Origin: a virus | IMG/VR virus record: IMGVR_UViG_3300042468_001645 | Span: 1 to 20,564 of that record | Strand: one strand, 5' to 3' | DNA: 20,564 nucleotides | Part shown: positions 1-19,512 of the stretch, piece after piece | Position numbering within the stretch: position 1 is the first letter of the stretch | Layout of the letters: the number at the start of each line of letters is the position of its first letter | The notes under the pieces: generated by a model | Database searches by the model: none | What the model was told of the DNA's origin: nothing | The model's input: only the letters and a program-made list of their open reading frames with translations | Made by a program: the position numbers and the translations under genes

Positions 1-473
1 CAATCCACCATTCGCACCAGTTCACTTCCGCTCCCGGATAGTTGACGACCGTCATGACAACCTCGAACATCACCTCTCGATCCCTACGCAAAGCGGACTT
101 CCGGTCCGCTTCCGCTCTCGGTCTGCGCCCAGAGCGAAAAAATCGCTTGCGAATCAGAAAAACGCTCGCTTCGATCGCTCGAAAACGTCACAACTTCGGT
201 GCATCGCGATGTTCAAAGCGGTCTTTAGAATCGTGCGCAGAGCAAAATCATCTAAGAGAAAACATTGGGGAAATCGCGAAATCGCAAAATCGCGTGCACT
301 TCGATTCTGACGCCCAACGCATCGCGTCCCTCTGACGCTTGATCCACTCCATTGCTACTCGCTGTCAACCGACCCTCCTCCGGCCAGGCCCATGATCCCT
401 CACCGCTCTGGCGGACTGTCGTTGACTGATGGAGCGTTAGTCTTTAGGTGAACAATTGATTCATGGCGAATGC
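1..473. other. Left-edge non-coding stretch
   Basis: No convincing gene is seen here. A 97-codon open frame on the plus strand (42-335) has no ribosome binding site and an Arg/Ser-rich composition typical of chance translation. The stretch holds an 8-bp hairpin (91-111) and a short tandem of AAATCGC-like units around 270-297. The nearest gene on the right ends at 474 and reads leftwards, so part of this region is its 3' untranslated region. No T-run terminator was found. Confidence 0.5.
91..111. repeat. 8-bp inverted repeat (hairpin)
   Basis: Arms AAGCGGAC (91-98) and GTCCGCTT (104-111) are perfectly complementary around a 5-nt loop TTCCG. There is no adjacent T-run on either strand, so an intrinsic terminator is not supported. 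It could be a small extragenic palindrome. Confidence 0.5.
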
Positions 474-1025
474 CTACGTTCCGCTCAATTTAGGTTTCTG
501 TGTCCATTTCGTGTTGAAATCATTCAATAGCCCATGGTCGATAATACGTGCGAGAATTGCATCCGGCACACAGTCGGTGATCCAGTATAGACTTTGTGCC
601 ACGCGGAGTTGCATGAGAGGATGAGATTTGTGAACATCCGACAAATGAATCAATAAATCGACTGCTCCTAGACTCGACCTTCCCGCTAGCCCTAATGCGT
701 ATATTGCGCAAGAAACCAACTCTAAGTCATTTTCCCCTAGTAGACGCAACAATGCGTTTTGCGATTCTTTAATGGGATTAGAAAACTCGCCGTTGCTCTC
801 AGACGGATCGAGATAGCTGACATATTGCAGGATTCTACCGATTGAGATAACTGTGCATATTAATAACGAACGTGGCTTATTCTCTTCCGGCCATCGATTT
901 AATACATTGGAAAAAAAAGGAAGCACCTCCATTCTCTCTTCGGCATTTTCAGGCAAAAGAGTGATATACCGCTCAAGTTCTTTGTCGGGTTTGCGGAACC
1001 ATTCCTCCATTTGATCAAGCTGCAT
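474..1025 (-). CDS. HEAT-like helical protein, possible immunity partner
   Basis: The product is a 183-residue protein without signal peptide or membrane segment, so probably cytoplasmic. The middle and C-terminal parts (about residues 85-165) show alternating Leu/Ala-rich helices of the HEAT/ARM type (for example SCAIYALGLAGRSSLGAVDL), but no family is firmly recognised. ATG at 1025 follows the stop codon of the upstream RHS-core gene by only 8 nt. The ribosome site AGGTAGG overlaps that stop (TAG at 1036-1034), which suggests translational coupling. Small genes directly downstream of RHS-type genes often encode immunity proteins, and HEAT-like folds are known among them. That role is inferred from position only. 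Confidence 0.75.
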   Translation of the reverse strand: MQLDQMEEWFRKPDKELERYITLLPENAEERMEVLPFFSNVLNRWPEENKPRSLLICTVISIGRILQYVSYLDPSESNGEFSNPIKESQNALLRLLGENDLELVSCAIYALGLAGRSSLGAVDLLIHLSDVHKSHPLMQLRVAQSLYWITDCVPDAILARIIDHGLLNDFNTKWTQKPKLSGT

Positions 1026-1033
1026 TCTCGAAC

Positions 1034-1762
1034 CTACCTAAGTGGTTGATCTCCAACTTTTGTATTCGGGTTGCAACACACACCGCCATTTCCTTCGCAC
1101 TCATCTGGATCCGCCCAGCCTACTGACATGCAAGATCCTGGTCTTGGATCCCAGGGTCCAGCTGTTATGCAACACCAGCATTTTCTAGACTCTTCCTCAT
1201 CTGGATGGTTATCGAAATAGATCTTTGCTACGACCACCGCAGTTACGAGTACGCACTCAACGGGTCCAACTTTGAATGATGGTTTGCACAATCCTACCGC
1301 GACAGGACTACAAGAACGACACCAGGTAGTCGTGGTAGTCGTTCGTTCGTAGCCTACACGCTCAAACACCCACTTGGAAGGCGTATTTGAACGACACAGT
1401 TTCGTCGCATCTATACCGGATGCATATGGAAATCGAATTTCTTTTTCCCAAAGCGACCACCAACCTAGCTTGAAGTATTTGCATACAATCTCAGTCTTTA
1501 TTGTGGTTAAAGTTTCGCATCCACCGTACAAGCCACCACCATGAGGCCCTGTCTTAGCAATTATAAGACCTGTTGGGTCAAGTGAATTAAACGGATTGCT
1601 ATCGCCAAAGTCATTCAAGCCCCATTCACTTCCCATATACCCAATCGGATCTCGCGAACAAAATCGCCCCAGGCCGGGATTGTACATGCCATACGCATCC
1701 GATCCCAAATTTGATGCTAATACGAGTCCAAAAAGTAAGACGGATACCTTTCCACAAATCAT
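1034..1762 (-). CDS. Short secreted RHS-core protein with Cys-rich C-terminus
   Basis: The product is 242 residues. Residues 1-25 form a signal peptide (basic start, hydrophobic VLLFGLVLA, SDAYG end). Residues about 25-66 match the end of the RHS repeat-associated core, with GRFCSRDPIGY and LDPTGL as landmarks. The rest is a non-repetitive C-terminal domain rich in Cys (about 14, including a CWCC cluster), which fits a disulphide-bonded exported domain. Typical RHS proteins carry hundreds to thousands of residues of YD repeats before the core; here there are none. The perfect ribosome site AAGGAGG 8 nt before ATG 1762 argues that this is a real short gene and not the broken tail of a long one. 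The C-terminal domain is not recognised. A toxin or surface-effector role is inferred from the RHS-core architecture. Confidence 0.8.
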   Translation of the reverse strand: MICGKVSVLLFGLVLASNLGSDAYGMYNPGLGRFCSRDPIGYMGSEWGLNDFGDSNPFNSLDPTGLIIAKTGPHGGGLYGGCETLTTIKTEIVCKYFKLGWWSLWEKEIRFPYASGIDATKLCRSNTPSKWVFERVGYERTTTTTTWCRSCSPVAVGLCKPSFKVGPVECVLVTAVVVAKIYFDNHPDEEESRKCWCCITAGPWDPRPGSCMSVGWADPDECEGNGGVCCNPNTKVGDQPLR

Positions 1763-1887
1763 GGTGCATGCCTCCTTAAGCTGGTAAATTTGGTTTAACG
1801 GTCAATCATCGGTTTTTTGGAATCTGAGGATTTAATTGACTAATACGGAATTCAACTTAATCACCGCTCTACATCTACTGCGTTCGG

Positions 1888-2742
1888 TTACTTCGATCCA
1901 GGTATCGCAAGCACGAAATTGGTGTCAACAACCCTTTGCCGTCGATCGCTTGTACCGGCATGCTGCACTACGAGCTTATTGAGATTATATAAGCCGCTCA
2001 ACGCTTCAATTGTGCAATCTCCATCAACGCAAATACTTAGAAAATCCAGCTTTTGCCCAATATGTTTTGAAATCGCCATGACTTGCTTATTCGAGAGAGC
2101 ATGCCCACTGATAGCAAGGCTCTTGAGCTCTTTAAGATCTGCCAAAGCGGAAATGTCACCTGTTCTTATGACCTTGGCATGAATGTCAATGTGTTCGAGA
2201 TTTGTCAAGGCACCCAGCCACCGAAAGTCTTCAACCGGAAAACTGCAACGTATGGAAAGGCTCTCTAAATCGTGAAGCCTTCCAATTTGTGGGAATATTT
2301 CCTTTGAGTACAGTTTATCACTTGAAAGGGTCAGCGAACGAAGCATCGGTAGGGAATCGAGCCAACCAAAGTTTTCCTCCTTGCCAGTTGCAAAGACGCT
2401 CAATTGATCGATAGTCGATAAAGCAGCGATTTTCGACAGTGCTTCCGGCGCGATTTTGACCTCGTCAGGATGATCCCCCAATTCCAGATTTCGCAGGGAA
2501 TTAAGTTTATTCAAACTTTCAATCTCGTCCGCATCAACGTTGTGCTGTAACAATCGAACAGTTTCGACTGTTTGAAGACTATCAGCGTTGTCATTCAAGA
2601 ACTTTGCCAATTCGGTGCTTGGACCGTTATGAACCAAAGTGACCGGCCGGCCGGAAGCATCGCGTTCAACGTAGACTTCGCCACATTGACCAACGGACGA
2701 GGCTAGCGCGATGGCAATCAAAATCAGTGCGAGTCTTATCAT
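1888..2742 (-). CDS. Secreted leucine-rich-repeat protein
   Basis: The product is 284 residues from ATG 2742. Residues 1-20 form a signal peptide (MIRLALILIAIALASSVGQC); the Cys at its end lacks a clear lipobox. Residues about 60-270 carry leucine-rich repeats of roughly 24-28 residues (LNSLRNLELG, LPMLRSLTLS, LHDLESLSIR, LTNLEHIDIH, LKELKSLAIS), the usual scaffold for protein binding. The start overlaps the stop codon of the upstream transglutaminase-like gene in an ATGA, so the two are probably translated together. A GTG at 2751 is an alternative start, but ATG 2742 gives a cleaner signal peptide. The partner protein is unknown. Confidence 0.85.
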   Translation of the reverse strand: MIRLALILIAIALASSVGQCGEVYVERDASGRPVTLVHNGPSTELAKFLNDNADSLQTVETVRLLQHNVDADEIESLNKLNSLRNLELGDHPDEVKIAPEALSKIAALSTIDQLSVFATGKEENFGWLDSLPMLRSLTLSSDKLYSKEIFPQIGRLHDLESLSIRCSFPVEDFRWLGALTNLEHIDIHAKVIRTGDISALADLKELKSLAISGHALSNKQVMAISKHIGQKLDFLSICVDGDCTIEALSGLYNLNKLVVQHAGTSDRRQRVVDTNFVLAIPGSK

Positions 2743-3824
2743 AGGGAGCACTTACTCTTTTTAGTGTCACCACGGTCGTCATCACACTTACTCCATTGTG
2801 TTGTGATTTCTGGGAACTTAGAGTTGGGCGTGACCCGTCTCGGCTTACACTTATAGCAGACATATTCCCAGCAAATACTTGCTTCACATGGTTCATTGCA
2901 AGGCAAATCATTATCGGGCTCACAACTCGACTGGTAGCGAACCATTACTGATTCACCAATCTTACAGTCTGCCCAAGGTAGCCCTGCGACCGGAGGCGCT
3001 TTGCCTGTTGCTGGAGAAGTTGGACGCATCCGATTTCCTTGAAGACTCTTGCAAGAGCATTTCTCGTTTCCGTTTTCAAAGTCATTTACTAGCCAATTAT
3101 CTATAGCTTCAGGCCACAGTATTGGCCCAGCGTTTGGATTTCCGACAGGGTAAGGTGGATAACCGAGTCGTCGAGCGACCGCCGTGTACAGGACTGGCAT
3201 CGAGACACAAGTACCACCGTTCGAACTGCCAACCATACCGTGAATGAAAAGATCTTGGCTCTTAGTGAAGTCAATATCGTTGACTCGCTCCAAGTGGTAA
3301 TGAACGCCGAAGTCCTGTTGCAAAACCGTGACCAACATCAGCATCCGGAAGTAAGCTTCCGAGTTGTTGAATTTGTTCGGCTTTTGTAAGAACTGGTAGA
3401 GGTTGCGATCGGTGTCTATCCTGACCTTCTTCGCCCAGCCATCTAACTGAGCCAGCAGTTGTGCAACGTTCGCATTCTCTGTGCCGGGCAATCCATCAGT
3501 AGCTCGCGGATTCAGTAAAGCGATGTCCTGCTTGCTCAACTCCTCTTCGGTCATCTTGGTCAAGTCAGCGAAGGTTGGAAGAACAGACTCCTTTGGCTGC
3601 GTGGCTCGCAATCTAGGATTCGCAGTTTTAATCGCCGTTTGCGACGGAGCAGAGAGACTCCAAATACCTAGAACAGTGACGACGAACGCACAAAGCGCAC
3701 TCAACTTCCAGATGGCATATCGCCGCAACGGTCTCGCTAATTCTTTGCTTGTTTCAGTAGATGAAAGCTTGGAGGCTGCTTGTGCCGTAATAGTTTGTCG
3801 CTTTCGTCGATCACGTTTTTTCAT
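2739..3824 (-). CDS. Membrane-anchored transglutaminase-like (SirB1-type) protein with Cys-rich tail
   Basis: The product is 361 residues. It starts with a strongly basic cytoplasmic segment (1-40) and one membrane helix (about 41-58), leaving the rest outside the cytoplasm. Residues about 155-226 match the transglutaminase-like fold of SirB1-type proteins: a helix FRMLMLVTVLQQDFGVHY, then GGTCVSMPVLYTAVARRLGYP with the nucleophile-position Cys206. In relatives the chain then continues into a His-containing strand and a FNIE-like region. Here it runs into an unrelated tail (about 228-361) with some 11 Cys, so the catalytic His/Asp cannot be identified and activity is doubtful. No frame restoration is evident, because the next frame has stops. 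A GGAGG lies 9 nt before ATG 3824. It heads the leftward cluster. Confidence 0.8.
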   Translation of the reverse strand: MKKRDRRKRQTITAQAASKLSSTETSKELARPLRRYAIWKLSALCAFVVTVLGIWSLSAPSQTAIKTANPRLRATQPKESVLPTFADLTKMTEEELSKQDIALLNPRATDGLPGTENANVAQLLAQLDGWAKKVRIDTDRNLYQFLQKPNKFNNSEAYFRMLMLVTVLQQDFGVHYHLERVNDIDFTKSQDLFIHGMVGSSNGGTCVSMPVLYTAVARRLGYPPYPVGNPNAGPILWPEAIDNWLVNDFENGNEKCSCKSLQGNRMRPTSPATGKAPPVAGLPWADCKIGESVMVRYQSSCEPDNDLPCNEPCEASICWEYVCYKCKPRRVTPNSKFPEITTQWSKCDDDRGDTKKSKCSL

Positions 3825-4305
3825 CGAACACTGCCTCCAGACTTGCTTGACTTTTACCCGCAGGAGGTATTAGAGGGCACGCGGAAGCAAAACGCAACAA
3901 AATTTTCTGGCGGTAGTCTGGTGCACGGTCAACTGCTGGTCTCTTCCGCACCCTTATCCGTCATTTCGAACTTGCACCGGGTATCCCTACAGATAGACGC
4001 GGCTGTTGTTGCTGCGATTGTCTGTCGCCAAGCCGCCCACAATAGCGGCCAAGTCCATGGAGGTGCGAGTTGCTCTCGACTGTTCCCCCTTCTTCTTTGT
4101 CTGCCCCAGCTCGGCGATCGGAAATCGCTGGGATTCTAGCGGCAGGCGTCGTCCGCATGAAGTCGCGTTTGGCGATCCGCGATCCAGAAACTGCCAAAGA
4201 TCTGCACAAATCACCATCAGCTTGCCTTGAGCTTTCTCCAGAAAGCGTGCTCTCTGTGACCAACGTGGTTAACGACCAGTGAGTCCGTTTTCTCAGGAGA
4301 AATCA
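3825..4305. other. Intergenic region between divergent genes, possible left edge of the element
   Basis: This 481-bp stretch separates the leftward transglutaminase-like gene from the rightward recombinase operon, so it should hold promoters for both. No open frame here has a ribosome site or recognisable product; the frames at 3961-4263 (minus) and 4006-4230 (plus) look like chance. Large serine integrases often have their attachment site next to the integrase operon, so one chromosomal junction could lie here. No att core can be named from one end alone. Confidence 0.4.
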
Positions 4306-4806
4306 ATGCAACTAGACATCGACAAAGAGGTCGCGCTGCTCCAACGCATGACGGTGGGGCAACTGCGAGAGAGGTTCGAAGAGACGTGGGGCGAGCCGAC
4401 AAACACTCGCAATAAGCAATGGCTACTCAAACGCATCGCCTGGAAGATGCAAGCCAATATCGAGGGTGACATTTCCGAGAGAGCTAGACGTCGGGCGGCC
4501 GAACTAGCACGCGGCACCGACATCCGAACGACGGCCCCCAAGGCTACCAAACCGGTGACAAATCCTGTGGCCGACACGGTGACCGGATTCGTCGAACCGG
4601 GGGAAGACAGCCGTCTGCCTCCCCCTAGATCAGTCATCGAGCGAGTCTACAAGGGCCAGAAGATTCTGGTACTGGTCCTGGAAACCGGCTTCGAATACGA
4701 CGGAGCAATCTACAAGACACTCAGCGCTGTGGCCAAAAAGATCACGGGGCAGCACTGCAATGGGTATCACTTCTTCAAACTTAGCAAGAAAGGTGGGGAG
4801 CAATGA
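4306..4806 (+). CDS. DUF2924 family protein (recombinase-associated)
   Basis: The product is 166 residues and matches the DUF2924 family. The conserved N-terminal half reads LQRMTVGQLRERFEETWGEP, then RNKQWLLKRIAWKMQA and SERARRRAAELA. The C-terminal part (VYKGQKILVLVLETGFEYDG, YKTLSAVAKKITGQHCNGYHFF) looks like the small domain often found on proteins that accompany recombinases. ATG 4306 is chosen over the upstream in-frame ATG at 4279 because CAGGAGA lies just before it. Its stop overlaps the recombinase start (ATGA, 4803-4806). DUF2924 genes are very often found next to serine recombinases. The biochemical role is unknown; an accessory DNA-binding role is inferred. Confidence 0.9.
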   Translation: MQLDIDKEVALLQRMTVGQLRERFEETWGEPTNTRNKQWLLKRIAWKMQANIEGDISERARRRAAELARGTDIRTTAPKATKPVTNPVADTVTGFVEPGEDSRLPPPRSVIERVYKGQKILVLVLETGFEYDGAIYKTLSAVAKKITGQHCNGYHFFKLSKKGGEQ

Positions 4807-6377
4807 ACAAACCCAACAACAATCACAGGCTGAACTGTGCGATCTACACACGAAAGTCCACAGACGAGGGGCTAGACAAAGAGTTCAATTCCCTCGATGC
4901 TCAACGCGAATGCGCCGAAGCCTACATCAAAAGCCAAACGCAAGAGGGCTGGAACTGCCTGCCCGATCACTACGATGACGGTGGGTTCACCGGTGGCAAC
5001 ATGGATCGACCGGCTCTAAAGCAACTGCTGGCGGACATCGAAGCTGGAAAGGTCAACTGTGTGGTCGTCTACAAAGTCGATCGACTGAGCCGTTCGCTGA
5101 TGGACTTCGCCAAAATGCTCGAAGTCTTCGAACGTAACCAAATCGCATTCGTAAGCGTGACGCAACAGTTCAATACGACCAACTCGATGGGCCGGCTGAT
5201 GCTAAACGTACTGCTTTCCTTCGCCCAGTTCGAACGCGAGATCATATCAGAGCGGACCCGCGACAAAATCGCTGCCGCCCGGCGGAAGGGAAAATGGTCC
5301 GGAGGGATGCCACTGCTGGGCTACGACATTGATCCACAGGGGGGCAAGCTCCGTGTGAATGAAGTCGAAGCCAACAGAGTCCGCAAGATCTACGATTTGT
5401 ACATCGACCGAGAATCGATCATGGCGACCATCGCAGAACTTGACAATCGCAGTTGGAACAACAAGTCCTGGAATACCAAGAAGGGCATACTTCGAGGCGG
5501 TTCGCCGTTCACCAAAGCAACGCTGTTCCGACTCCTTACCAACGTGACCTACATTGGTAAATTAGCCTACAAAGACGAAATCAACGAAGGTGAACACGAC
5601 CCGATCGTCACGCCCGATGTGTGGCAAAGGGTCCAGTCCCTGCTTCGACGAAACGGTCGGACTGGCGGTGTCGATGCAAGAAACAAATTTGGTGCCTTGC
5701 TCAAGGGAATCCTGCGATGCTCCTGTTGCGATTGCTCGATGACTCCGACGCATACGACAAAGAGTGGGGCCAAACGCTACCGATACTACGTGTGCATGAA
5801 GGCCCAGAAGCGTGGCAGACGGATCTGCGAGTCGAAATCGGTGCCAGCGGCCGAAATCGAGAAGTTCGTAGTCGACAAAATACGCCAAGTCGTAGAAAAC
5901 GAGAGGCTTGTCGACGAGGTCGTGCAGCAAGCCAAAGTCCAGACACAACACGAACTCGACGCCCTTGTGGCCGAGCGAGACGAAATCGTGAAGGAGATCG
6001 AGTATTGGAACGAAGCCATCCGAATTGCTGCCCCCAAAATCAAACCAAATTCCCCAGATGCGAACCTGCTGAAACAGTTAGCAGATTGGCATGAGGATCT
6101 TCGGATTGCTGAGAATCGGCTCACCGTCGTCAACGCAAAACTAACCCTACTAAAGTCGCAGGCGCTGACATCCAACGATGTAGCCACAGCGCTCGATAGC
6201 TTTGAGCCGGTTTGGGAATCGCTCACGGTTCGCGAACAATCACGGATCGTCCAGCTAATCGTCAAGCAGGTCGATTACGACGGTGCCAATGGGCGAGTTA
6301 CCATCACATTTCACCCGGACGGAATCAAATCGATCGCCAGAAATAAACGCCCCGAACTTGTGGAAGCCGCATCATGA
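4803..6377 (+). CDS. Large serine recombinase (integrase of the element)
   Basis: The product is 524 residues with the full large-serine-recombinase layout. The N-terminal resolvase catalytic domain (about 10-160) has the nucleophile Ser19 in YTRKSTDEG, followed by the conserved VYKVDRLSRS and QFEREIISERTRDKI. The recombinase domain (about 170-280) includes GYDI and NVTYIGKLAYK. A zinc ribbon (about 306-350) is built from the Cys cluster CSCCDC and later Cys in YYVC and RRIC. A long helical coiled-coil segment (about 380-465) precedes the C-terminus. Such enzymes integrate and excise phages and integrative elements. ATG 4803 overlaps the DUF2924 stop and follows GGTGGGGAG. The gene appears intact. 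Confidence 0.95.
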   Translation: MNKPNNNHRLNCAIYTRKSTDEGLDKEFNSLDAQRECAEAYIKSQTQEGWNCLPDHYDDGGFTGGNMDRPALKQLLADIEAGKVNCVVVYKVDRLSRSLMDFAKMLEVFERNQIAFVSVTQQFNTTNSMGRLMLNVLLSFAQFEREIISERTRDKIAAARRKGKWSGGMPLLGYDIDPQGGKLRVNEVEANRVRKIYDLYIDRESIMATIAELDNRSWNNKSWNTKKGILRGGSPFTKATLFRLLTNVTYIGKLAYKDEINEGEHDPIVTPDVWQRVQSLLRRNGRTGGVDARNKFGALLKGILRCSCCDCSMTPTHTTKSGAKRYRYYVCMKAQKRGRRICESKSVPAAEIEKFVVDKIRQVVENERLVDEVVQQAKVQTQHELDALVAERDEIVKEIEYWNEAIRIAAPKIKPNSPDANLLKQLADWHEDLRIAENRLTVVNAKLTLLKSQALTSNDVATALDSFEPVWESLTVREQSRIVQLIVKQVDYDGANGRVTITFHPDGIKSIARNKRPELVEAAS

Positions 6378-6790
6378 ACGATACAGTAAGCGTTGATTTT
6401 CAGTTCTCAATCAAGCCACAGGGCCGAGGGGCTCGAAAGAGAATGGTTGAGAAAACGGGCACTTCGAAAGAGACCAAACCTCTAGAACGCATCCCTCGGA
6501 TCGCTCGCTATATGGCACTCGCGATTCACTTCGAGGGTCTTATCAAGAAAGGGGTGGTCACAGATTTCGCTGACCTCGCCCGGCTTGGTCACGTGACGCG
6601 GGCTCGTGTGACGCAGATCATGAATCTACGGTTGCTTGCCCCAGAGATCCAGGAGGATATTCTTCTCCAAGTTAGTAACCATGTCACGCGAGATCAAATT
6701 GGGCTGAAGGAGATTCAGGAAATCTCCATGTATCTAAGCTGGAGTAAGCAACGGAGCGCATGGTTCAAACTCAAACGCACGAACGGGTGA
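6374..6790 (+). CDS. Small helix-turn-helix protein coupled to the recombinase
   Basis: The product is 138 residues. A basic, flexible N-terminus (about 1-40) precedes a predicted helix-turn-helix at about 63-84 (TDFADLARLGHVTRARVTQIMN), which resembles the DNA-recognition helices of ParB/KorB-like and phage repressor-like proteins. A second helical part follows (LAPEIQEDILLQ). Its ATG overlaps the recombinase stop in an ATGA, so it is probably made in step with the recombinase. Position and size make a recombination directionality factor, or an autoregulator of the integrase operon, plausible inferences. Sequence alone cannot separate these. Confidence 0.8.
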   Translation: MNDTVSVDFQFSIKPQGRGARKRMVEKTGTSKETKPLERIPRIARYMALAIHFEGLIKKGVVTDFADLARLGHVTRARVTQIMNLRLLAPEIQEDILLQVSNHVTRDQIGLKEIQEISMYLSWSKQRSAWFKLKRTNG

Positions 6791-14222: not shown

Positions 14223-16380
14223 GCAAATCTCTGGTTCGGTCGATCGAGTGTACTTCACTAGCGCCAAATTCTGCGCCGGTGCACTGGTCGGCCAAGATGG
14301 CGTCCGTGTTCGCTTCCGTGGGCCATTTTGCGTCAGTGAAGGTGACTCGGTCACACTCACAGGGCAGTGGAAAAGCGACCCAAAGTATGGTGACCAGTTC
14401 GACGCCAAAAGCGTGACTTACGATTTGCCCGAAACCCCTGAAGGGTTAGTGCAATACCTAGCAAAACATCCTGCGTTCGTTGGGATCGGGGAATCCACAG
14501 CCCGCAAGATTGTCCAGTACGTCAGCAGCGCCGAGCACCTTGATCGCGTGATTCGTCAGGATGTTCAAGAACTCAATCGTGCACTGCGGATCCCTAAGCA
14601 GACATTGCATTCAATGCGGGAAGCATGGATCGCCAACAGCGCACAAAATGAGGTCCGTTCCTACTTAGCAAGCTTTGGGCTCTCCCATCTTCAAATGGAA
14701 GCCTTGATCGAGGAGTTTGGCTCCTCGGTCGTTGGTGTACTAAGAGCCGATCCGTATTTGATCATTCAGTACGTCAAAGGCTACGGTTTTAAGCGAGTCG
14801 ACAAGATAGCAAGATCCATGGGGGTTCCAAAAGAGCACCCAGGAAGGCTCGAAGCCGCTTTGTGCTATTTGGTTTTCGATGAGGTCAACTCCGGTCACAC
14901 ATGGATATCTCGCGACGAGCTGGTTCACAAGGCAACTGAGTTGCTGCTCCTGGATTCGCTTGACTGCCAGTCAACCATCGAGGTTGCTCTCGAGCGAACC
15001 ATCGAGCAAGGGAAGCTTATCCTCAACGAGGATGCTGTCGCTCTGGCCTATTACGCGGAATCCGAGTGGTTCATCCACCAGTGTTTTCAGAATTACGGCA
15101 ACGTGACTCGTCCGCTGGGGATCAGACCGGCGCACGGGGAAGGTCTCAAACGTGCACAGCTAGCCGCCTACGAGGCTGCAATGCTTCATGCGATCGTTGT
15201 GATTTCTGGAGGAGCGGGTACCGGGAAGACGCACACTCTGGCTCGCCTGGCGAAGACCTTCGAAGCAGCCAATCTCAAGGTTGCACTTTGCTCGCCCACA
15301 GGGAAGGCCGCAAAACGGATCGAGGAGTCGCTGCGATCCCAAGGGCTAACGCTCGAAGCCAAGACGGTCCACCGGTTGCTCGAGTACAACGGCCATGAGT
15401 TTCAAAGACGGAGCCTTTCGATACCCAGCAACACAGAAACTGGTGATGCTCCAAGCGATGCCTTCGATGTGGTCATCGTAGACGAAGTATCGATGGTCGA
15501 TGTCCCCTTGATGGCTGAATTACTACGACGCATCGACTTAGGCACAACCAGACTCATTCTAGTTGGTGACCACAATCAATTGCCCCCTGTAGGCGCTGGG
15601 AATGTTCTTAGAGACTGCATCAAACACAAGCTTGTGCCGACGTTTGTTCTTGATGAGGTAGTTCGGCAGGCAGGTGTGCTCAAGTCCAACAGCATGGCGA
15701 TTCTATCGCAGCGCGTGATGCCAACGGCTCTGGGAGATCCAGGCTGGAGCGTGATCGATTCCTTCAGTGACCCCATGCAGATCCAGGTTTACCTGCGCGA
15801 TTTGGTACTGAATCGAATTCCGGATCGGCTTGGTCTAGACCCTGTCATCGATGTTCAAATCATCACGCCGACGCATATTGGTCCTCTCGGTACCAAGGCC
15901 ATCAATGGAATGATGCAGTACTTACTCCACGGTGAAGTCAATCGCAAGTTTGCAGTCGGAGACAAAGTCATCCAGACGGCCAATGATTACTGCATGGGGG
16001 TTATGAATGGCACCCTTGGTATTGTCTCTGAGATCGATACCGAAGCGGGGACCAGGTACGTCATCGATTTCGATGGGCACGGTCGCAAGCTAGTCCAGGA
16101 TGACCAGATTCTTAATGTCCAGCTTGCTTACGCGTTGACTGCGCACAAAGCCCAAGGGAGCGAGTTCCGTTGCGTGGTCGTACTGTGCCATAAATCCCAT
16201 TTCTTCGCCGATCGGAATTGGCTCTACACCGCAGTGACTCGCGCGTCGAAGTACTGCATCTTGGTCGGCGATCGCTGGGGACTTTCCAACGCTGTGAAAA
16301 AGAACAGTGTTAGCCAGCGCCGAACCTTCCTTGATCGCTGGGCCAAAGAGACCGCTCAAGCCACGGAGGTGTCACTTTGA
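14215..16380 (+). CDS. RecD2-like superfamily 1 DNA helicase
   Basis: The product is 721 residues from ATG 14215, chosen for AAAGGGGA upstream, the overlap with the ERCC4 stop and a natural N-terminus (SGSVDRVYF). An OB-like N-terminal part and helix-hairpin-helix region (about 60-250) precede the helicase core. The core has Walker A SGGAGTGKTH (about 331-340), Walker B VIVDEVSMVD (Asp423, Glu424), LVGDHNQLPPVGAGN, and C-terminal AYALTAHKAQGSEF and VTRASK (about 674-679). This is the RecD2/TraA-type 5'-to-3' helicase family and lacks RecB and RecC partners here. It likely unwinds DNA for element replication or recombination. Its stop overlaps the primase start (TTGA). Confidence 0.92.
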   Translation: MSKQISGSVDRVYFTSAKFCAGALVGQDGVRVRFRGPFCVSEGDSVTLTGQWKSDPKYGDQFDAKSVTYDLPETPEGLVQYLAKHPAFVGIGESTARKIVQYVSSAEHLDRVIRQDVQELNRALRIPKQTLHSMREAWIANSAQNEVRSYLASFGLSHLQMEALIEEFGSSVVGVLRADPYLIIQYVKGYGFKRVDKIARSMGVPKEHPGRLEAALCYLVFDEVNSGHTWISRDELVHKATELLLLDSLDCQSTIEVALERTIEQGKLILNEDAVALAYYAESEWFIHQCFQNYGNVTRPLGIRPAHGEGLKRAQLAAYEAAMLHAIVVISGGAGTGKTHTLARLAKTFEAANLKVALCSPTGKAAKRIEESLRSQGLTLEAKTVHRLLEYNGHEFQRRSLSIPSNTETGDAPSDAFDVVIVDEVSMVDVPLMAELLRRIDLGTTRLILVGDHNQLPPVGAGNVLRDCIKHKLVPTFVLDEVVRQAGVLKSNSMAILSQRVMPTALGDPGWSVIDSFSDPMQIQVYLRDLVLNRIPDRLGLDPVIDVQIITPTHIGPLGTKAINGMMQYLLHGEVNRKFAVGDKVIQTANDYCMGVMNGTLGIVSEIDTEAGTRYVIDFDGHGRKLVQDDQILNVQLAYALTAHKAQGSEFRCVVVLCHKSHFFADRNWLYTAVTRASKYCILVGDRWGLSNAVKKNSVSQRRTFLDRWAKETAQATEVSL

Positions 16381-18719
16381 GTGAAGCCATTGAACGAAAT
16401 TGTCCAGCAAGCATCCGTGACTGCCATCAGTGGGTCGCTTGGAAGTATGTCGAGCGAGGCGGCAAGCAGACCAAGGCACCTGTAAATCCACATAATGGGT
16501 TGCTTGCCTCTTCGACTGACCCATCAACCTGGGGACCATTCTCACAGGCGATGCAAGCCTGCGAGCGTGATGCATCACTTGCTGGTATCGGCTTTGTCTT
16601 TTCGGCCGATGATCCGTACTGCGGCGTGGACCTAGATGATTCCATCGACGAAGCCACCAGAGAGCTCAAGCCATGGGCACAGCAGATCGTCGATCGACTC
16701 GACAGCTACACCGAGATCAGTCCGTCAGGCTTGGGCCTAAAGGTATTCATCAAAGCCAGTAAGCCTGGATCCCGCTGCCGCAAGGCGTATCACGACGGTG
16801 AAGTCGAGATCTATGATCGCGATCGTTTTTTCACAGTCACCGGAAATCGTATCGCTAGTGCTCCCAGCGAGGTGAATGTTCGACAGGAATCCCTTGACGC
16901 TGTTTATGCACAGGTGTTTGGCAACGATGAGCCAGGCACTAACGGAACTCCCTCGGCTAGCGGAGGTCCCCAGCCAAGCGATAGTGGTTCGGTTTGTCTA
17001 AGCGACGACCAGATCATCAATCTGGCATTCCGACGTCGCTCGTCGGGCGCGAAGTTTCAAGCTCTGTGGAATGGCGATTGGAACTTGTATTTCAATTCAG
17101 CCAGCGAGGCGGACTCATCGGTTGTCTTTACCCTCGCTTACTTCACCAAGGATGCTGCTCAGATCGATCGGATCTTCAGACGTTCACAGTTGATGCGTGA
17201 GAAATGGGATCAAAAACACGGCAACGAAACCTATGGACAGCGGACGATCGCCAATGCGTTAAAGAAGGTCACCAAGCAGTATGATCCGACGAAAAAGCGT
17301 TCAGTTGCCCCCAAGCCACCAAGCCAGATTCCTCAAAAAATCGGATTTCCCAACACGGACATCGATTGGGATTTCAGAAGCGATCAGACTGAAAACGCTA
17401 TGGCCGTGGAGTTTATCGACGGCAATCAAACCATCTTGCGATATGTGCCATCTTGGAAGAAATGGCTCGCCTGGGACTCAAAGCGATGGAAGATCGATAT
17501 CGATCAAAGTCGAACGACTCGATTGGCACGCAGGTTGGTTCGCAATTACTGGGACAGGATGCGAGGTATTCAAAGCGAGGAGCAGCAAGAGAAATGGGCT
17601 GAATTTTGCCGACGGGCCAATCGCAAGACCACGATCGAGAACGTCGTATCGCTAGCTCGGTGCGATGGTAGGACGACGATCGATCACGAGCTATTAAACC
17701 AGAACACCTATTTCCTGAATCTACAAAACGGAACTCTCGATTTATCCACATCGGAGTTTCGCGATCATCGTCAGACCGATTCCATTACCCAAATCGCCAA
17801 CGTCGCATACGATCCCAAGGCTTCATGTCCGAGGTGGCGAGCATTCATCGATCTGATATTCGGAAGCGACGAGGAAGCCAAGCGATACATCCAAGCCCTT
17901 CTGGGTTATTCGTGCTCGGGGGATGTCGGCGAGCATATTCTTCCAATCTGCTATGGCTCGGGTGCCAACGGCAAGTCAACGCTCTGGAATGCAATCGTCG
18001 AATTGCTTGGCGACTATGCCATGTTGGCACCTAGTAAGTTGCTGCTTGGCACAACCAACGAGCATGACACGATCATCGCATCGCTCTACCAGCGGCGTTT
18101 GGTTGCCATCAGCGAGCCCGATGAAGGCTCAAAGCTCCGAGAAGCTCGGGTCAAGGAATTAACAGGCGACGAGCAGATCACAGCAAGACGGATGCGTGAG
18201 GATTATTGGAGCTTTCGTCGCACGCACAAGTTTTGGCTAAGCACGAACCATCTGCCACAAATCAATGGCACAGACGAGGGCATCTGGCGTCGCATCAAGC
18301 TTATCCCCTTCAGAGTAGACCTCCGGACGGTAACAAAACCCATTCCAGACTACCACAAACTGCTCATTAGCGAGGAAGGTCCAGGAATCCTAAATTGGCT
18401 CCTAGAAGGGTTCAAAGACTGGCGCAAAAACGGCTTTACAGAGCCTCAATCCGTCATTAGCGAGACAACATCGTATCGCGGAAGTTCGGATGAGCTGGGT
18501 CGGTTCATTGCCGACTGCTGTGAGGTTTCACCGGAACTTGTGGTCGCTTCATCAGAGCTTTTTGACGCCTATCGAACCTGGGGAGGCGACCTGAGCCAGG
18601 TCCGATTTTCGAAGCAAATGCAGACCCGTTTTGCACACTCAAAACGCAACTTTGGACGGTTCCGAAACAAGCAGGTTTTCGAGGGCATTTCTTTCTCAAA
18701 AAGTGATCAAAATGACTGA
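16377..18719 (+). CDS. P4-type primase-helicase (archaeo-eukaryotic primase plus SF3 helicase)
   Basis: The product is 780 residues. The N-terminal primase part (about 1-190) has GIGFVFSADDPYCGVDLDD (Asp85, Asp87), SPSGLGLKVFIKA and EIYDRDRFFTVTGN, as in archaeo-eukaryotic primases. The C-terminal half matches P4/D5 superfamily 3 helicases, with Walker A GSGANGKST (about 527-535), AISEPDEG, and STNHLPQINGTDEGIWRRIKLIPF. It would prime and unwind at the element origin. The start is TTG at 16377, with a strong GGAGGT before it, and it overlaps the helicase stop as TTGA; no nearby ATG is better placed. It is the last gene of the tightly packed operon. Confidence 0.92.
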   Translation: MSEAIERNCPASIRDCHQWVAWKYVERGGKQTKAPVNPHNGLLASSTDPSTWGPFSQAMQACERDASLAGIGFVFSADDPYCGVDLDDSIDEATRELKPWAQQIVDRLDSYTEISPSGLGLKVFIKASKPGSRCRKAYHDGEVEIYDRDRFFTVTGNRIASAPSEVNVRQESLDAVYAQVFGNDEPGTNGTPSASGGPQPSDSGSVCLSDDQIINLAFRRRSSGAKFQALWNGDWNLYFNSASEADSSVVFTLAYFTKDAAQIDRIFRRSQLMREKWDQKHGNETYGQRTIANALKKVTKQYDPTKKRSVAPKPPSQIPQKIGFPNTDIDWDFRSDQTENAMAVEFIDGNQTILRYVPSWKKWLAWDSKRWKIDIDQSRTTRLARRLVRNYWDRMRGIQSEEQQEKWAEFCRRANRKTTIENVVSLARCDGRTTIDHELLNQNTYFLNLQNGTLDLSTSEFRDHRQTDSITQIANVAYDPKASCPRWRAFIDLIFGSDEEAKRYIQALLGYSCSGDVGEHILPICYGSGANGKSTLWNAIVELLGDYAMLAPSKLLLGTTNEHDTIIASLYQRRLVAISEPDEGSKLREARVKELTGDEQITARRMREDYWSFRRTHKFWLSTNHLPQINGTDEGIWRRIKLIPFRVDLRTVTKPIPDYHKLLISEEGPGILNWLLEGFKDWRKNGFTEPQSVISETTSYRGSSDELGRFIADCCEVSPELVVASSELFDAYRTWGGDLSQVRFSKQMQTRFAHSKRNFGRFRNKQVFEGISFSKSDQND

Positions 18720-18766
18720 TTCGAAGCAACACAAAAGACTGTCAAAAACCCTGGAAATTTGCACGT

Positions 18767-18854
18767 TGCGCCGGGTTGCGCTATGTCACTTCATTATCTT
18801 CCATGCGCGTACGCGCATGGGAATCAATAAAAGTACCCAGCGCAACCCGGCGCA
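18767..18854. repeat. 88-bp concentric dyad with a central 20-bp palindrome, candidate origin or regulatory site
   Basis: TGCGCCGGGTTGCGCT (18767-18782) and AGCGCAACCCGGCGCA (18839-18854) are perfect 16-bp inverted arms. Between them CCATGCGCGTACGCGCATGG (18801-18820) is a perfect 20-bp palindrome. Both have the same centre (18810.5). The two 18-nt spacers are AT-rich and match about half way as inverted copies. It starts 47 nt after the primase stop. Such nested symmetry suits initiator binding, cruciform extrusion or a dimeric or tetrameric regulator. A bidirectional terminator is less likely because no T-run flanks it. Confidence 0.6.
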
Positions 18855-19073
18855 CTGGTCGATTTTAAAGGTCGTCGACGCACTGAAATTTGTGGACGGT
18901 AATGGCCCCCAAAATGCGATCGGAAATCGACGTTCAAAGAGCGCTTCTCGACCAGCGAAGAATGACACCAAGCGTCGCTTGAACCCTGCTGAGTCGGCAA
19001 CTGATACGAATGTCTCAGATCATGTATTTGTTTCGATGCTGCTCCATGACATGCATCCTTTACAAGTTCTTGC

Positions 19074-19091
19074 AAGCCTGCTTACAGGCTT
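19074..19091. repeat. 7-bp hairpin
   Basis: AAGCCTG (19074-19080) pairs with CAGGCTT (19085-19091) around a 4-nt loop CTTA. It is the first of a series of short hairpins between the large dyad and the ParB/methyltransferase gene. Confidence 0.4.
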
Positions 19092-19097
19092 CGCTCA

Positions 19098-19113
19098 CAA
19101 ACGCCTACGTTTG
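19098..19113. repeat. 6-bp hairpin
   Basis: CAAACG (19098-19103) pairs with CGTTTG (19108-19113) around the loop CCTA. It lies 7 bp after the previous hairpin and has the same loop length, though a different sequence. Confidence 0.35.
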
Positions 19114-19204
19114 CGCCTGACGCGTTCAAAGCACCACGTTCGATCAAAGTGCCCATTTAGCGAAAGATCGCGTAAAAAGGCCAACTGTGGCCACATGTGC
19201 GGGT

Positions 19205-19219
19205 GTGCCATTTTGGCAC
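19205..19219. repeat. 6-bp hairpin
   Basis: GTGCCA (19205-19210) pairs with TGGCAC (19214-19219) around TTT. A further 5-bp hairpin, GGCCA (19179-19183) with TGGCC (19188-19192), lies just upstream. Confidence 0.4.
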
Positions 19220-19254
19220 TACTTTGGTCCAAATTGCCCTAATGGGTCCTCCCC

Positions 19255-19279
19255 CGCCCTTAAACCCCACTTAAGGGCG
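19255..19279. terminator. 9-bp hairpin, possible terminator without T-run
   Basis: CGCCCTTAA (19255-19263) and TTAAGGGCG (19271-19279) are perfectly complementary around a 7-nt loop. It could end transcription coming from the primase operon, but TTGGGAAAAA follows instead of a T-run, so a regulatory or factor-dependent role is equally possible. Confidence 0.35.
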
Positions 19280-19512
19280 TTGGGAAAAATCGCCGAGTTA
19301 GACAGAGTTTTATTTGCTAGTCCGAATTTTCAACCAGGAGGACTTTTAGCAACGAAATGCAACGCAAAGACGAGTTTGCGAGAACCGACGTGATCCAGAT
19401 TGCCAGGGGGTTGGAACGGTCCCCTTGGAGCCTGGGTTGGGCCACTACGGAACGCTTGATGCCATCGAGGCGTCTTGGAATTTCACATTAAACGCATGTT
19501 GAGGAAACGAAA

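Follow-up and report, generated by a model that had tools for sequence, protein, structure and literature searches.

The closest described counterparts of the locus considered here are replication origins that lie 3' of the gene for their own initiator. In the Sulfolobus plasmid pRN1 a 100-nt stem-loop 3' of orf904 is needed for replication, a mutation in the stem is rescued when symmetry is restored, the stem-loop works when displaced, and a GTG priming motif can be mutated without loss; no iterons were reported in this stem-loop, and an origin of the same type was also proposed for Bordetella phage BIP-1 (PMC4234260). The origins of the SaPI/PICI elements lie directly 3' of rep and consist of iteron sets around an A/T-rich region (PMC6092414, PMC7581432), and in both SaPI Rep and Cch2 it is the C-terminal domain that recognises the iterons (PMC7581432). 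The polymerase of Nitratiruptor phage NrS-1 forms hexamers (PMC8718748, PMC7102993), and two copies of its priming octamer have been stated (PMC7102993).

The DNA that we analysed, hereafter the window, comprises an entire IMG/VR record (20,564 bases) and is probably a fragment; the features under discussion are collected in Table 1. A preliminary description had claimed an 88-bp concentric dyad at 18767-18854, and the sequence bears this out exactly, with perfect 16-bp arms, 18-nt spacers and a perfect 20-bp palindrome sharing a common centre at 18810/18811. The claim that this is the strongest symmetric structure of the window likewise stands: it is the sole extended inverted repeat, with 61-nt arms that are 70% complementary, as compared to 12-14 nt for the next best. 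It starts 48 nt downstream of the stop codon of a primase gene (18717-18719). Measured against 200 dinucleotide shuffles of the region 18740-18880, the fold has a z of -8.25 as RNA and -6.03 as DNA, none of the shuffles being as good, and the dyad is thus far beyond chance.

Table 1. Positions of the dyad, its parts and the adjoining gene in the window
Feature	Position	Strand	Sequence or length	Remarks
Primase-polymerase/SF3 helicase gene	16377-18719	+	780 aa	NrS-1-type PrimPol, HBD, D5_N, DUF5906 helicase; presumed initiator
C-terminal segment of the primase, residues 701-780	18477-18716	+		Presumed origin-recognition domain, by analogy with SaPI Rep/Cch2/pRN1 (PMC7581432)
Left arm	18767-18782	+	TGCGCCGGGTTGCGCT, 16 bp	Read from the sequence; covaries with right arm
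TTGCGC repeats in left arm	18766-18771 and 18776-18781			Spacing 10 bp
Left A/T-rich spacer	18783-18800	+	18 nt, 13 A/T	Near-invariant TTC[A/G]TTATCT in the alignment of relatives
TTTNNTTR-like octamer in left spacer	18789-18796		CTTCATTA	15-22 bases off centre
Central palindrome	18801-18820	none	CCATGCGCGTACGCGCATGG, 20 bp	Perfect
Alternating pyrimidine-purine tract in centre	18802-18819		18 bases	Includes an inverted TGCGC/GCGCA pair
Right A/T-rich spacer	18821-18838	-	18 nt, 12 A/T	
TTTNNTTR octamer in right spacer	18825-18832	-	TTTTATTG	TTTGGTTA or TTTGGTTG in many relatives
Right arm	18839-18854	-	AGCGCAACCCGGCGCA, 16 bp	Covaries with left arm
Inverted TGCGC repeats in right arm	18840-18844 and 18850-18854			
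Non-coding stretch up to next gene	18855-19512	none		Partly conserved in relatives

The symmetry is richer than first described. TTGCGC occurs twice in each arm, the copies 10 bp apart, and TGCGC/GCGCA recurs in the centre, so that the 88 bp hold six TGCGC-type copies where 0.15 would be expected; this count drops to two in the most diverged members of the family (L011). The two spacers carry their TTTNNTTR-like octamers at mirror positions and on opposite strands. Those of the window (CTTCATTA and TTTTATTG) match the NrS-1 priming site in degenerate form only, and in three relatives (L006, L016 and L178) the octamer of the right spacer is exactly that site, TTTGGTTA; as candidate priming sites these octamers are suggestive. 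The GC skew shows no switch at the dyad, in a window that is a fragment with almost no skew.

The protein encoded directly upstream has Pfam matches to PF22763 (1.1e-25), PF08706 (4.2e-29) and PF19263 (1.1e-11), matches phrog_1829 (DNA primase), and over its first 310 residues matches the NrS-1 PrimPol chains in the PDB at 4e-39. The HBD, D5_N and DUF5906 families together with the NrS-1 match therefore identify an AEP PrimPol fused to an SF3-type helicase and not a P4 alpha protein; the label “P4-type” used earlier was imprecise, as the primase part is of the NrS-1 type and the window's gene does not carry the bacterial TOPRIM primase of the alpha protein. The orf904 protein of pRN1 matches the window's primase at 3.9e-11, over the helicase part. 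An AlphaFold model built with 14 sequences has a mean pLDDT of 58; it is confident in the primase part only, for which NrS-1 is again the best match, with about 41-65 and no confident fold at residues 690-780, where a winged-helix DNA-binding domain would be expected from the pRN1-type origins, and the helicase and C-terminus can therefore not be judged from it. Across the relatives, the last 80 residues of the primase track the type of the dyad's arms. For instance, L006 has a window-like N-terminus combined with a C-terminus and arms like those of L008. Such co-variation agrees with a recognition domain that travels together with its target, and could also be simple linkage between adjacent sequences.

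Searching viral contigs with the primase yielded 22 loci, of which 20 are close relatives at 74-100% identity, and the dyad is present in every close relative with enough sequence, with the exception of L020. Behind the primase of L020, which is 74% identical to that of the window, the TGCGC repeats are replaced by GGGTGGC, present twice and 10 bp apart; these repeats lie within the last 145 bases of the contig, which stops short of the right half. When a degenerate core motif was used for scanning, it found 18 viral loci and nine genome contigs, the latter all from Planctomycetota, and the primase stands directly upstream of the dyad in every one of these loci with more than 37 nt of preceding sequence; the host group is therefore Planctomycetota, and the dyad is tied to the primase gene. 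(The arm 14-mer alone was uninformative, giving at least 120 unrelated GC-rich matches among the viral contigs.) Extra genes lie between the dyad and the following ParB-methylase gene in L011, L019 and L022, and in all three the dyad remains beside the primase. One open reading frame of the L019 insert reads like a homing-type endonuclease.

How the dyad varies was measured on the 17 distinct aligned dyads of the window family. In the outer arms 27 cells are changed on both sides as compared to 14.7 in shuffles, the covariation score is 0.169 against 0.095 (none of 500 shuffles being as high), and the signal is lost when the pairing is slid by 1-3 columns; we take this as evidence, good though not conclusive, that symmetry is under selection, because the kinship of the sequences inflates the test and because template switching, too, can correct a palindrome. 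In the centre, all 17 members keep 17 of 17 alternating pyrimidine-purine steps, including the 12 in which the palindrome is broken (5-8 of 9 pairs). Each of the six variable columns of the centre varies by transition, whereas in the other parts 12 columns vary by transition and 22 by transversion (Fisher p = 0.005). Some members had been collected with a pattern that presupposes R/Y at the centre columns, but the variants were already among the members found by protein alone.

We note that the locus combines traits of several of the described systems. As in the pRN1-type origins of the Sulfolobus pRN plasmids (PMC4234260), an AEP and SF3 gene is followed within about 50 nt by a large stem-loop of ~90-100 nt, the structure of which is kept while its sequence varies; unlike pRN1, the window has three concentric symmetric parts, its arms carry pairs of TTGCGC, and its centre is alternating and GC-rich where the loop of pRN1 is A/T-rich. 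Although described without iterons, the pRN1 stem-loop (about 5086-5180) has arms that hold TGTCCA twice on each side, 9 bp apart. For the BIP-1 region, a search for 6-base direct repeats at spacings of 8-13 bp found none, and the stem-loop published for it did not emerge clearly at the coordinates examined. With the SaPI/PICI origins the window shares the position 3' of an initiator helicase gene and two short iteron sets with A/T-rich spacers between them, though with a GC-rich centre in their midst; it differs in that its sets form a compact, nearly perfect 88-bp dyad with an extra central pair, and in host and element, and shows no evidence of a helper phage.

Two phages with related enzymes offer a closer comparison. 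In Lactobacillus phage A2 (AJ251789), the primase of which is homologous over its full length, a rep_origin is annotated at 32208-32717 over the 3' end of the primase gene and, as in the window, inverted iterons (ACGGGAGGAT) lie 3' of the gene, where they flank an A/T-rich core; the A2 origin is larger, with another iteron sequence and an A/T-rich centre. NrS-1 (AB746912) has the closest characterised enzyme (PMC8718748, PMC7102993), the PrimPol part being about 30% identical, and inverted GGTTACACTTT iterons at 17058-17280 directly 3' of its polymerase gene, inside a gene annotated as small hypothetical and in a longer, less symmetric array than that of the window. The priming octamer TTTGGTTA, of which AB746912 has one exact copy, sits within this array on the minus strand at 17198.

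Among more distant homologues, the same place is occupied by other sequences. The 300 nt that follow the homologous primase in 25 diverse phages abound in inverted and direct repeats, whereas control stretches inside the gene and in the 5' flank of the same phages hardly ever do. Widening the survey with Planctomycetota genomes gave 86 flanks 3' of the primase, with an inverted-repeat dyad in 27 at P<=0.01 and in 38 at P<=0.05, and with six-base direct repeats 9 bp apart in 38 and 10 bp apart in 30 as compared to about 8.6 expected; the homologues with such dyads of unrelated sequence include those of A2 and NrS-1, and in this survey no dyad was detected behind some others, e.g., those of 9NA, Epa40 and RcThunderbird. 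These flanks suggest that many ordinary phages and prophages share such an origin layout. Alternating tracts also occur, at the dyad centre or close to it, in L024, Arthrobacter phage GlobiWarming, L262, L269, L291 and L300, and are significant in the window family, L024, GlobiWarming, L262, L269 and a few others. As a universal feature the alternating centre was rejected, the signal across all dyads being weak (combined p 0.028). By eye, GlobiWarming has two successive concentric dyads of AGTGACA-type iterons 3' of its primase, each with an alternating GC-rich centre (TACGTGCGCGCACGCGTA and CGCGTACGCACGCAC); the dyad-centre scan gives P = 0.07 only.

The dyad is very probably the replication origin of a Planctomycetota (pro)phage, which the PrimPol-helicase of the adjoining upstream gene would recognise, and is most likely a compact variant of the pRN1/SaPI origin class. 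This was one proposal of the preliminary description, which made it depend on relatives keeping the symmetry; the relatives do so, with compensatory changes and complete linkage to the primase, and together with the other dyads behind distant homologues, the A2 annotation and the pRN1 experiments (PMC4234260) they support the proposal. The target of a multimeric regulator, offered then as an alternative, is probably the same thing here. By analogy with the systems described above, primase monomers would bind the TGCGC-type repeats via the C-terminal domain, at two repeats per arm one helical turn apart and at the inverted pair in the centre, and the twofold symmetry would then allow the assembly of two hexameric SF3 rings head to head. 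Melting would follow in the A/T-rich spacers and in the flexible centre with its pyrimidine-purine alternation. Once the spacers are exposed, the PrimPol domains would prime there, and the two TTTNNTTR sites, symmetric and opposite in orientation, are possible start points. If the polarity is that of NrS-1, the new strands would be sent outward, and replication would be bidirectional.

Some of the same observations could be read in other ways. If the primase mRNA ended in a long hairpin that serves to stabilise, process or terminate it, this would suit the position just after the gene, the very stable RNA fold and the arms that pair with compensatory changes. On the + strand, departures from pairing in the arms and centre comprise 25 G-U and 15 A-C cells, which is no clear difference, and those in the spacers lean the opposite way (10 vs 53); there is therefore no sign of selection on the transcript rather than on the DNA, and selection for an RNA hairpin was rejected. 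The right arm is followed by CTGGTCGATTTT and not by the T-run of an intrinsic terminator, and an Rfam search of the hairpin and the downstream non-coding stretch gave no family at gathering score, with chance microRNA-like matches to the hairpin only. A hairpin in the mRNA would moreover leave unexplained the 10-bp-spaced repeats, the alternating centre and the iterons found at the same place in homologues, and we consider an RNA element improbable.

Palindromic repeats are also typical operator material, and the long non-coding stretch here leads to a downstream gene. That the primase or a dimeric repressor acts on the dyad to control its neighbours, with replication starting elsewhere, nevertheless strikes us as very improbable, given that the dyad stays with the primase despite the inserted genes in L019, L011 and L022, and that its 3' placement and its recurrence behind homologues match experimentally supported or annotated origins. 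The downstream gene itself encodes a ParB_N-methylase fusion, which is an unlikely binder of the dyad. Concentric inverted repeats around a central palindrome further resemble telomere-resolution sites such as N15 tos, and the element does have a serine recombinase. Yet the recombinase lies 12 kb from the dyad, no protelomerase was found among the proteins scanned of the window (a fragment), the central palindrome is broken in relatives that keep the alternating pattern, and the dyad tracks the primase, all of which makes a recombinase core site or a protelomerase target scarcely credible.

Other parts of the window deserve mention in their own right. The non-coding DNA at 19180-19345, upstream of the ParB-methylase gene, shows partial conservation among relatives, with the motifs GGCCAAC-GTGGCC, ATGGGTCCTCCCC and CAGAGTTT-TTT, and has no Rfam match; it is possibly a promoter or a second regulatory element. 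At 4279-6790 a DUF2924 protein, a large serine recombinase and a small protein that matches phrog_14161 (recombinase) follow one another and make up an integration module on one flank of the element. Positions 1-4200 have a lower GC content (about 46%) and mostly minus-strand open reading frames, one with an RHS-like core (YGMYNPGLGRFCSRDPIGYMG), and look like host chromosome beside a prophage boundary near 4.2 kb.

The origin class to which we assign the dyad is already known. What look new are the alternating pyrimidine-purine centre, kept even where the palindrome breaks, and the pairs of repeats spaced by 9-10 bp that are hidden in the arms of this dyad and of the pRN1 stem-loop alike. This leads us to speculate, as a generalisation whose chances we put somewhat below even, that the stem-loop origin of pRN1 and the iteron origins of SaPI/PICI and A2 form a single class, in which repeats one helical turn apart make up an inverted array 3' of the AEP-SF3 initiator gene, and that a branch in Planctomycetota and actinobacterial phages opens via an alternating, Z-DNA-prone centre, conserved in pattern and not in sequence, instead of an A/T-rich one.

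To our knowledge no phage origin has been mapped for Planctomycetota phages, and the dyad provides an 88-bp candidate for one. It also yields a rule open to immediate testing on public genomes, which is to search the DNA just 3' of a PrimPol-SF3 gene for inverted repeats with a spacing of 9-10 bp. That the NrS-1 priming octamer lies within iterons 3' of the polymerase gene would explain how this self-priming replicase finds its start. Finally, the repeats in its arms suggest that the pRN1 stem-loop holds ordinary binding repeats, which would unite the “stem-loop” and “iteron” origins.
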